The translations under genes were made by a program, and so were the position numbers. A model generated the notes under the pieces. That model searched no databases, was not told the DNA's origin, and was given only the letters and a program-made list of their open reading frames with translations. This document shows positions 4,350-32,674 of a stretch of DNA of 64,000 nt, in pieces (position 1 is the first letter of the stretch; every line of letters starts with the position of its first letter). Source of the stretch: an uncultured Alphaproteobacteria bacterium (GTDB lineage: Bacteria; Pseudomonadota; Alphaproteobacteria; RF32; CAG-239); assembly GCA_944393695.1 (NCBI GenBank), contig CALYAY010000003.1, positions 62,001-126,000 of the forward strand. The letters are read 5' to 3'.

Positions 4350-6347
4350 TTAGAATTCAAGGACGGGACGAACGTCGTAGCTGGTATTCTTCGTGGTGTT
4401 GACGCTCAATCCGTAGTCGTTGCCGAAATACGATCCCCACACGCCGAAAAATGATTTCAACATGCTGTAGCTATAGTATATGGAAGATGACCAGTTATAG
4501 AAACCTGTTCCTATCTGAGTACCTCCAGCGTTAGTCATACCGATATTAACCAACGGTTGATTGTTGTAATATGAGGTAAATACACCTGGCGCCGGTAAGC
4601 ACCAGTCGCCTGCATTAGTTCCTTCAGTTTTGTATTCGTGTGCTGCCCAAGCTGCCGGATATTTACTCTTGTCTCCGGCAGCGATAATTTTCTGGGTATT
4701 GGTGCAGCTATTCAGGTCTTTACTTGCATTTTCATCACTGTCAAAGTTAGTTAAGCTCGAAATATCTGTGCCAATTGAGCTCCAATCGAGTGAGTTCCAA
4801 ATGTATTTGCCTACGCTATTCAGCGCTATAGCCTGGGCGCAATTGCCGTCATCGCTTTTGTAGACGACGACGGCGATGGGGGTCTTGCCGGAAATTCTTT
4901 GAGGGCTGCAGGTTCTGTCGCTATACAGAATATCACCAATGTTGCAGTTTTTGGCCGAGCCGTTGCATTTGCCCCATTCGGGTTTGGGTTCTTCTTTGCA
5001 AACATCGTCTTTCCATTCATAGCCGCTGGTGCAGGTGCAGGATTTATATTTTCCGTTGCAGGCTTCGCCGGAGCCGCCGGCGTAACCGGTTCCGGAGCAG
5101 GTGTATTTATAGGAACTTGGGCATTGTTCAGTGCAGGTTTGGGAACTTGAGTTCCAGTCGTAACCTGATTGGCAGCCAGATTTGTAATATTTGCCGGAAC
5201 AATCTTCATAGGTGCAGGTGAAAGGTACCGGACAAGAAGTCAGAGTTCCTTTGTATTCGCATTGTTTTGTACAAGTCTTGGTGCTTGCGTTCCAGTCATA
5301 GCCGGACTGGCAGCCGGATTTATACCAGAGGCCGGAGCATTCCTCGTAGGTGCAGGAGAAGGGTGCCGGACAGCTGGTTAGTGTACCGAGATTGGGACAG
5401 GGCTTGCAGTTGTCGTATTTCAGTTGATTGCCGGAGAGGCATGAGTTTGCACCGGTGTCGGGGCCCATGGAACCGCAGTCCAAGAAGCCGTCGCAGGGAT
5501 TGGGTTTTATCTTGTAATGTTCCTGACCGTCACAACCGGTACAGGCTTCGCCGTCTTGTACATAGCCCTCGGGGATACTCGTATTGTCGTATTCGGCACA
5601 GGTGTTGCAACAGGTGCCGTAAGTATTGTCATAAGAACATCTGTCATCACTTAATTGCTGGCCGGTGCCGCATTCATCGACGTAACCGGGGTTTAATTCC
5701 TGACAGGTGCGTTCGGTGTCTTTTTCACAAGAAGCGTATTTTCCGTTACAAGCTTCACCAACCCCGTAATAAGGCGGTTCGCAGGTCACATAATTTGAGG
5801 GACAGGTGGAAACACATTTTTCGAAATAACTATTATCATAAGGGCAGGTGTTGGAAGGTTCCTGCCCATCGGGACAGGATGTCTGAGTATATCCTTCCTG
5901 ACGGCAGCGTTCGGCATTGTCGAGGTCATAGTCATCGCCGTCTCCGGGTCCGCCGGGAGAACCATACCCGTCATCATCGGCATTATTGCCGGCAAATTCA
6001 TTCCCCGAACAGGCCGAAGTGTCTGTCACAAAACAGGTGGCGGCAAGTTTTATTTTATCACCCTGTCTTTTTTCTTCCCTCCCTAAAGATTTAGGGAGGG
6101 TAAGGGTGGGTTTGAAACCCTCTCTATCTCCCCCTAAGTTTTTAGGGGGAGTAAATCCAGCTAAATCTTCAAATGAAGACAACAACGTTTCATCCGGATG
6201 AGAGGTGTGTGTATAAGGTGTGTGGACAAATGTAATCGCACCCGGAGAGTTGAAAGATGTTAAGTTATGAATTGAAGCGGCGCTGCCGTTGGACATAATA
6301 ATCAATCCGGAAACGGACAGCATTAAAGCTTTAGATAGTTTCATCAT
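4350..6347 (-). CDS. Secreted modular cysteine-rich protein with C-terminal DUF1566/lectin-like domain
   Basis: A 665-residue exported protein of no named family that I recognise. Order of parts: signal peptide (about 1-24); a short linker; a segment encoded by a palindromic repeat (about 66-91, see the repeat entry); the motif CFVTDTSACSGNEF (105-118), shared with the proteins at 17.3 and 30.3 kb; an Asp/Gly-rich linker; many Cys-rich units of 30-50 residues (about 130-460) with themes such as GVGEACNGKYASC and two near-identical CTYEDCSG.YYKSGCQSGYDWN units; and a C-terminal domain (about 470-665) with GDWCLPAPG, NWSSS and the ending VRPVLEF. That last domain looks like the DUF1566/Fib_succ_major group with a C-type-lectin-like fold. 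The many cysteines fit a disulfide-bonded surface protein. Function unknown; adhesion or binding is only a guess. It ends convergently with argS. Confidence 0.85.
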   Translation of the reverse strand: MMKLSKALMLSVSGLIIMSNGSAASIHNLTSFNSPGAITFVHTPYTHTSHPDETLLSSFEDLAGFTPPKNLGGDREGFKPTLTLPKSLGREEKRQGDKIKLAATCFVTDTSACSGNEFAGNNADDDGYGSPGGPGDGDDYDLDNAERCRQEGYTQTSCPDGQEPSNTCPYDNSYFEKCVSTCPSNYVTCEPPYYGVGEACNGKYASCEKDTERTCQELNPGYVDECGTGQQLSDDRCSYDNTYGTCCNTCAEYDNTSIPEGYVQDGEACTGCDGQEHYKIKPNPCDGFLDCGSMGPDTGANSCLSGNQLKYDNCKPCPNLGTLTSCPAPFSCTYEECSGLWYKSGCQSGYDWNASTKTCTKQCEYKGTLTSCPVPFTCTYEDCSGKYYKSGCQSGYDWNSSSQTCTEQCPSSYKYTCSGTGYAGGSGEACNGKYKSCTCTSGYEWKDDVCKEEPKPEWGKCNGSAKNCNIGDILYSDRTCSPQRISGKTPIAVVVYKSDDGNCAQAIALNSVGKYIWNSLDWSSIGTDISSLTNFDSDENASKDLNSCTNTQKIIAAGDKSKYPAAWAAHEYKTEGTNAGDWCLPAPGVFTSYYNNQPLVNIGMTNAGGTQIGTGFYNWSSSIYYSYSMLKSFFGVWGSYFGNDYGLSVNTTKNTSYDVRPVLEF
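6077..6151. repeat. Palindromic element inside a coding sequence (copy 1)
   Basis: Two perfect 10-bp-arm palindromes with 4-base loops lie here: CCCTCCCTAA/TTAGGGAGGG (6077-6100) and CTCCCCCTAA/TTAGGGGGAG (6128-6151). Between them is a GGGTTTGAAACCC-type inverted repeat. The element is read without a stop as residues 66-91 of the cysteine-rich protein. The same palindrome cores occur in the intergenic array at 6.47-6.6 kb and inside the paralogue at 30.5 kb. Confidence 0.9.
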
Positions 6348-31837: not shown

Positions 31838-32674
31838 ATGAAGAAGATATTATTGGCAAGTGCGGGGGTAATGGTGATGAGTGCGGGGACGGTGTATGCC
31901 GCCTGTATTCCGACGCCGAGTTGTTCAAGTTTAGGGTATGAAAGTTCCTCATCCTGCGAAGGCGGGATTAAATGCCCCTTCGGCAATGCCTGGAACTGCA
32001 CTGTTATCAACAAAGTTAACGAAATCACCAACAAAGTGACTGAGCTTGAAAAAGTGATTGAAGAAGGAGGAACTTCTGGAAACAAAGGCGACACTTCAAA
32101 CTGCAAAATAGGTTCGATTTTCTACTCAGACTGGACTTGCTCTTCCGGCAGTCTGTCACCTGGAAAAACCCCAATCGGTGTGGTTGTCTATATAAACGGA
32201 GAAGGCCATGGACAGATTATGGCTTTAGGCAGCATTGGTTATTATAAATGGGGGCCGGATGATGTTGATATCCCGACCTTGACTAATTTTGACAGCGCTG
32301 AAAGTGCGAGTTACGACTTGAACAGCTGTGCTAATACCCAGAAGATTATGGCGGCAGGTGATAAGAGCACTTATCCGGCTGCCTGGGCTGCTCACGAATA
32401 TAAAACCGAGGGAACAGAGGCCGGAGACTGGTGTCTACCGGCGGCTGGCGTATTTACCTCTTATTATAATAACCAACAGCTGGTTAATATCGGTATGACG
32501 AACGCCGGGGGTGAACAATTAGGAACAGATTCCTATCACTGGTCGTCTTCTGAACTCAATAACTACTACGTATGGCGCTCGAATTTCGGTTACAGCTATG
32601 GGTTGCTCAGCGGTGGCAGCGGCAGCTACACTAAGATTGACAGCTACGAGGTTCGGCCGGTGCTGGAGTTTTAA
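31838..32674 (+). CDS. Secreted protein with DUF1566/lectin-like domain
   Basis: A 278-residue exported protein: signal peptide (about 1-21, ending TVYAA), a short Cys-rich stretch (about 22-50), a short coiled coil (about 50-70, NKVNEITNKVTELEKVIEE), then a domain (about 85-278) homologous to the C-terminus of the 665-residue protein. Shared landmarks are CKIGSIFYSD, GKTPIGVVVY, LNSC.NTQKI, GDWCLPA, NIGMTNAGG, WSSS and VRPVLEF. The C-terminal 35 residues vary most between the two. Function unknown; the fold is probably C-type-lectin-like, which suggests binding. It has a strong AAGGAGAAAGG ribosome site and its own terminator. Confidence 0.8.
   Translation: MKKILLASAGVMVMSAGTVYAACIPTPSCSSLGYESSSSCEGGIKCPFGNAWNCTVINKVNEITNKVTELEKVIEEGGTSGNKGDTSNCKIGSIFYSDWTCSSGSLSPGKTPIGVVVYINGEGHGQIMALGSIGYYKWGPDDVDIPTLTNFDSAESASYDLNSCANTQKIMAAGDKSTYPAAWAAHEYKTEGTEAGDWCLPAAGVFTSYYNNQQLVNIGMTNAGGEQLGTDSYHWSSSELNNYYVWRSNFGYSYGLLSGGSGSYTKIDSYEVRPVLEF

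Follow-up and report, generated by a model that had tools for sequence, protein, structure and literature searches.

In our reading, to which we assign a probability of about 0.88, disulfide-rich stalks display lectin tips that are rewritten by a single multi-template, multi-target DGR, and the window (the whole 64,000-nucleotide stretch of DNA analysed here) holds two target genes and three Cys-rich members of this system. According to this model, one remote locus with Avd, a template repeat and a reverse transcriptase (RT) would copy an adenine-rich template RNA with errors at adenines, and the resulting cDNA would be pasted in trans over the 3′ ends of dozens of dispersed lectin genes. About 20 codons of the lectin face, mostly of the NNC/NNT type, would be randomised and the scaffold kept. 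The Cys-rich proteins would be exported and, stabilised by disulfides, would hold out the lectin tip as stalks or anchors, in some cases within one fused polypeptide and in others as the product of the gene just upstream. The tip may bind outward ligands such as glycans, host surfaces or other cells, and the payoff might be the tracking of changing ligands, or the evasion of antibodies or phages. We infer the current activity of the DGR, the surface location, the stalk role and the ligand.

Cys-rich and lectin genes of the window

The earlier note on this DNA described three genes for exported Cys-rich proteins without a named family, and all three are real. P0003 (positions 4350-6347, minus strand; 665 aa, 46 Cys, 6.9% cysteine) is a fused target gene, in which a signal-peptide-like N-terminus, the motif CFVTDTSACSGNEF at residue 105, and a Cys-rich region precede a C-terminal C-type-lectin-fold domain. 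P0001 (17302-19644, plus strand; 780 aa, 76 Cys, 9.7%) is a Cys-rich paralogue with the motif CFITDSEDCRGNEF at residue 48, and has no lectin domain. P0002 (30348-31424, plus strand; 358 aa, 33 Cys, 9.2%), with CFVTDTSACSGNEF at residue 106, is a Cys-rich partner of the putative stalk type and lies directly upstream of a lectin gene. As had been described, the pattern CF(V/I)TD..C.GNEF is common to the three proteins, and the G.G..C...GK.Y..C theme occurs in each in a loose form, two, four and two times in P0003, P0001 and P0002, respectively. All three N-termini are Lys-rich and hydrophobic and, judged by eye, resemble signal peptides, in agreement with the proposed export.

The lack of a named family was borne out by the profile searches. 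P0001 and P0002 gave no Pfam match up to E=1, and P0003 matched only RANK_CRD_2, with 19.2 bits, below the cut-off of 26.8. NCBIfam returned no match for P0002 and P0003, and a chance-level match only for P0001. An IMG/VR scan with P0002 gave no match. No NACHT-type domain was found in the window proteins with Pfam and NCBIfam; NACHT-type conflict sensors were considered and rejected, since the products look exported.

The earlier note missed that P0003 ends in a lectin-fold domain of ~200 residues, of which a stand-alone copy is encoded after P0002 by the gene at 31838-32674 (plus strand, 278 aa). Residues ~416-665 of P0003 match the product of this gene, an exported-looking DGR target composed of a signal-peptide-like start, a short Cys region, a predicted helix (residues 51-76) and a C-type-lectin domain (~94-278). 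Its AlphaFold2 model, based on an alignment of 19 sequences drawn from the window and named contigs only, has a mean pLDDT of 78.5, with values of ~90 or more over most of residues 90-278 and below 50 at residues 253-259, within the VR loop. The model superposes on the Bacteroides fimbrial protein 4eps with a Z score of 17.2 over 184 residues, and on the C-terminal domain of Legionella Lcl (8q4e) with a Z score of 12.2 over 121 residues, and other C-type lectins rank behind. The modelled domain has a C-type-lectin fold, like the Lcl C-terminal domain. The tip fold is common to the Lcl_C/DUF1566 adhesins (Legionella Lcl and the Bacteroides fimbrial tip proteins), whereas the window proteins fall below the PF07603 model for this family, with no match up to E=1; a target of the same family as ours, on a named contig (L156), passes PF07603 with 41.3 bits (cut-off 34.9). 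The stalk of Lcl is collagen-like, and the N-terminal Cys-rich modules of the window proteins would appear to be unlike it.

A single DGR in the source genome

The genome from which the window comes (the source genome; 1,749,866 bases in 38 contigs) contains a single reverse transcriptase by PF00078 search, a 438-residue ORF on contig C17, which is not the window contig. It is a full-length open frame with IGNLTSQ and YVDD, and therefore carries the (I/V/L)GxxxSQ signature in motif 4 that is given as the hallmark of DGR RTs (PMC3521204). Across 13 RT loci, IGNLTSQ is found in the source genome and 11 others, IGNLSSQ in one, and YVDD in all 13. Upstream of the RT is an Avd gene, which matches PF22296 with 59.6 bits (cut-off 40) and NF033474 with 63.7 bits, under the stricter cut-off of 80. 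The order of the element (L034) is Avd, template repeat, RT. The A-rich template repeat between the two genes encodes WSSSENNSNNAWNSNFSNDYGLNNNNNKNNSNEVRPVL, reported also as FWSSSENNSNNAWNSNFSNDYGLNNNNNKNNSNEVRPVLAF, and its core (~114-116 nt) is 35% A and encodes an Asn-rich stretch. A genome search with the template yielded 35 DNA matches at E <= 10, including itself, the last few being at chance level. In four DGR loci searched with Rfam, tRNAs were the only matches. With the RT motif, the Avd gene, the adjacent A-rich template, adenine-biased VRs, and C-type-lectin-fold genes that end in a VR, the system has the sequence hallmarks of a DGR.

The adenine-specific signature in the VRs

For each of the 52 lectin ORFs found in the source genome, the 3′ end was aligned with the template core (116 bases). 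The ten closest VRs individually show 1-6% mismatches at C, G and T versus 31-59% at A. When pooled, they are mismatched at 160/388 A, 8/310 C, 6/250 G and 14/209 T, or at 28/769 of the other bases together. Within their AAC and AAT codons, positions 1 and 2 changed in 150 of 298 cases and position 3 in two of 149, the choice of C or T being kept codon by codon. The pattern dissolves when a VR is used as a pseudo-template (mismatch fractions of.34 at A,.11 at C,.20 at G and.18 at T). In a one-sided Fisher test, 19 of the 52 VRs pass at 1% FDR and 33 fail against the only template found; over all 52, 714/1,909 A and 718/3,834 non-A positions are mismatched. The 33 failing VRs are older, derived from other templates, or non-targets.

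The two VRs of the window are intermediate and not among the freshest. That of P0003, at its 3′ end (4360-4496, minus strand), differs from the template at 14/38 A and 10/76 non-A positions (p=0.0043, just outside 1% FDR), and that of the 31838 gene (32537-32664, plus strand) at 18/39 A and 13/77 non-A positions. Lengths also vary: the ten closest VRs show gap columns of -3 to +33 relative to the template, mostly in its AAC-rich part. Loss or collapse of templates would account for these differences, and so would triplet slippage; a study of a DGR reconstituted in E. coli mentions that AAC repeats can slip by multiples of three (PMC12875486).

Such a family might also have arisen as ordinary paralogous surface lectins, through duplication, recombination and positive selection, with the RT being unrelated. 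The lectin scaffolds themselves are indeed diverged, the best pair reaching 89% over the 300 bp upstream, and many VRs differ from the template also at non-A sites. However, selection fails to explain why third codon bases hardly change next to a 50% change at the first two positions, or why the pattern vanishes when a VR replaces the template. Further arguments against it are the position of the template, flanked by Avd and an SQ-motif RT, and one of the two cleanest VRs of the relative G006 (below), with mismatches at 20/40 A and 0/89 non-A positions. The paralogue explanation is already strongly disfavoured, and we give it a very slim chance.

The earlier note had inferred that these disulfide-rich proteins rearrange rapidly, which is not supported as the main mechanism of variation. 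The strong diversification that can be demonstrated is the templated, adenine-specific hypermutation of the C-type-lectin domain by the DGR, and phase-variable recombination among the Cys-rich units was rejected as the main engine. The variation in units that the note described does exist, in that the module number and the fusion state differ among members (zero to two lectin domains, fused or split).

Cys-rich proteins and lectins as one arrangement

A search of the source genome with P0003 gave 167 matches, far above chance, and a search with the 31838 product gave 66 matches at E <= 0.001. The paralogue count that the earlier note called for reveals a large family: within the genome stretches retrieved by similarity, on which all ORF counts rest, 54 ORFs carry the CF(V/I)TD..C.GNEF motif. 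In the same stretches, a profile built from the lectin matches identified the 52 lectin ORFs, with 55 lectin domains, the template frame itself being excluded. Most of them end in W(S/T)SSE, a hypervariable stretch and VRPVLEF, and at least two (C7_28192 and C9_9038) lack the typical VR tail. The motif and the lectin domain are fused in 14 ORFs, and 36 lectin ORFs are stand-alone (<345 aa); 28 of these closely follow a same-strand Cys-rich ORF. Fusion and adjacency together indicate that the Cys-rich protein and the lectin belong to one arrangement, realised as a split pair or as a fusion. The family is large, unnamed, modular, Cys-rich and exported-looking, and it is probably located at the cell surface and outward-facing.

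Another possibility would be that the Cys-rich proteins are unrelated cargo whose genes happen to lie beside those of the lectins, for example protease inhibitors, secreted toxins or proteins that bind metals. AlphaFold predicted no usable fold for P0002 (pLDDT 28.9, from an alignment of three sequences), and many Cys-rich ORFs, including P0001, have no lectin domain by profile. Unrelated cargo would not be expected to be fused to the lectin domain as often as is observed here, nor to precede most stand-alone lectin ORFs on the same strand, and the same pairing recurs in the named MAG contig L156. We therefore consider this explanation unlikely, and retain the stalk or anchor role for the Cys-rich proteins.

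P0001 has one partial relative elsewhere in the source genome and, despite the common motif, is not a DGR target. This relative, the sole P0001-like one found in the genome, has as its neighbour an ORF of 811 aa that encodes two lectin domains (contig C7, 42420-46691; L101).

A count from the search matches also placed 17 of the source genome's 76 contig ends inside Cys-rich or lectin genes. Since repeats break draft assemblies, copy numbers are uncertain and templates may have been collapsed; the true copy number of the family is probably higher than assembled, the assembly having been broken by the family itself.

Distribution and VRs in relatives

The RT was found in eight of the 11 genomes of the genus (G000-G010) and in 15 of the 56 genomes searched, the source genome included. 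All the genomes look like draft bins, those of the genus with 30-230 contigs, and the numbers of templates or targets read from them may be wrong or reduced by collapse. Counted as alignment pieces and not genes, the lectin matches in G000-G010 number 63, 48, 42, 39, 38, 95, 124, 73, 20, 46 and 35, and the Cys-rich matches, likewise as alignment pieces, 92, 60, 41, 11, 53, 30, 15, 32, 16, 55 and 28. In the three same-genus genomes in which no RT was detected (G004, G008 and G010), 20-38 lectin matches remain, so an RT need not be detectable for the family to persist. Outside the genus, lectin matches occurred in four of 19 other genomes (G011, G014, G016 and G017).

The adenine bias is most pronounced in G006, which has one RT and in which 35 of all 36 listed template-like VR places end in a VR-type tail. 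A first pattern extracted 25 VR cores, all of which are adenine-biased at p<0.01; ten further VR-type tails with a slightly different ending were recognised by eye only, and there is none at L339. The two cleanest VRs, aligned without gaps to two templates of one array, are mismatched at half of their A positions (20/40 and 19/38) and at none of the others (0/89 and 0/82). In G007, 12 of 14 VR cores (from 16 stretches) reach p<0.01 in a comparison with six of its seven templates, the unit starting RSSSE being left out. In G005, all three VRs sampled, out of ~27 VR-like places, reach p<0.01. The first 'template' used in the VR comparison of G001 is a real target.

A further class of VRs in G006, W.F.A.TSGSF.M....K...SVRPVL (L335-L370), comprises ~19 members by pattern, 12 of them of equal length, and no assembled template matches it well. 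These 12 VRs have 17 hypervariable codons, in which the entropy is 1.66 bits at the first position, 1.22 at the second and 0.10 at the third. Such a pattern is probably the footprint of an unseen NNC/NNT template, and the class seems to be derived from a template that is absent from the assembly, either unassembled or lost.

These comparisons bear on whether the DGR, once active, is now dead or nearly so in the source species, its targets being relics and its scale the product of a past expansion. The non-A differences in both window VRs would be consistent with decay, as would the persistence of the family in RT-less relatives and the state of the element in G005, where the RT and the Avd-template array are on different contigs and Avd appears to be truncated before the RT. 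On the other hand, the ten closest VRs of the source genome combine few non-A mismatches with many at A, its RT is a full-length open frame with the SQ and YVDD motifs, and relatives possess VRs with zero non-A mismatches. We regard a dead DGR as decidedly unlikely and favour an element that still rewrites its targets.

Tandem template arrays

In several relatives, the single template repeat is replaced by an array. G007 has seven tandem template units between Avd and RT, ~250-300 bases apart and differing in length and in fixed residues. G006 has three units, the second and third of which encode the same peptide, and G001 has two. Scanned with a template pattern, five of the 11 genus genomes gave templates, all of them at these DGR loci, and the backward control gave none. 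No template was detected in G002, G003, G004, G008, G009 and G010 by this pattern, which would miss templates that lack certain Asn/Lys codons or a VRPVLA-like end.

A conserved leader of ~110 bases precedes each template unit. RNAalifold predicted 26 pairs from 15 leaders, 11 of them with pair-keeping changes on both sides, which suggests that each template unit may be recognised as a structured RNA. Templates of different length are each matched by some target, and the choice among tandem templates would change both loop length and loop sequence in these relatives. We lean towards the view that the arrays constitute a repertoire system: the tandem cassettes, up to seven, with their own structured leaders and differing loop lengths and mutable codons, may be the blueprint library that a single RT uses to rewrite surface lectins at dozens of sites across the chromosome, so that loop length and loop sequence vary combinatorially.

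The element of G005 is split, with Avd and two templates on C26 (L371) without an RT, and the RT on C30 (L281). This RT is preceded by an apparent Avd start (the first codons), fused or truncated against the RT. In G002 and G003 (L282 and L283), RT and Avd occur with no adenine-rich template found nearby; in each of the two genomes, Avd is immediately preceded by a VR-type tail.

Comparison with known DGR systems

A close known counterpart is the TvpA family of Treponema denticola, the remote DGR targets of which number two to seven per isolate (PMC4891356). Both systems have one RT with a template, dispersed surface proteins of the C-type-lectin fold (in our case predicted to be at the surface), C-terminal VRs and adenine-specific change. 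The scale is different, with 19 supported VRs among 52 lectin ORFs in the source genome and 35 VR-type tails in G006, and so are the tandem template arrays of the relatives and the Cys-rich partner or putative stalk genes. Many targets per genome, some apparently diversified in trans, are also described for Thiohalocapsa PB-PSB1, with nine DGR loci and 15 targets tied to NACHT conflict systems (PMC10907252), and for Trichodesmium erythraeum, with two DGR RTs and 18 loci of TR/VR homology (PMC8867640). Unlike these, the present system has one RT and exported-looking products, and its window proteins have no NACHT-type domain.

More than one template per DGR is not unprecedented. In a DGR survey, a single template served 216 of the 271 DGRs with several VRs, from which it follows that some had more than one, and the maximum was 91 TR-VR pairs with six TRs, called atypical, with few A-to-N changes (PMC6642488). 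A set of cyanobacterial genomes contained 121 diversified genes (PMC7517822). Roux et al. reported 36,611 targets; they describe VR regions located on C-type-lectin folds, and most of their cellular target clusters contain a signal peptide or a transmembrane segment (PMC8144416). Searches of the open-access literature, which included DGRs of this lineage, gave no account of the present system, of tandem arrays in which as many as seven distinct templates each follow a conserved structured leader, of so many adenine-biased VRs under one RT, or of the Cys-rich partner family.

The papers cited here deal with single DGRs with few targets, and a set of 15 targets spread over nine loci already counts there as exceptional (PMC4891356, PMC10907252). 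In the present system, there is one RT for dozens of dispersed targets, in genomes of less than 2 Mb, and relatives hold rows of alternative templates. How targets are selected in trans, and how some members stay constant, can now be tested, as can the effect of position and orientation on the rewriting rate, both of which are reported to tune it in the DGR reconstituted in E. coli (PMC12875486). The same holds for the way in which loops change in length, and for the benefit that many variable exported-looking lectins bring to an alphaproteobacterium with a small genome. The Cys-rich family without a name gains a concrete hypothesis for its role.

RTs 42-70% identical to that of the source genome were also observed in Bacteroidota, Patescibacteria, a Myxococcales bin and others, many of them beside Asn-rich template frames (L154-L220), a distribution that suggests horizontal transfer of this RT type. 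The closest named RT loci come from MAGs labelled uncultured Alphaproteobacteria, and a further one from roe deer caecum, which makes a gut habitat plausible for the source genome.
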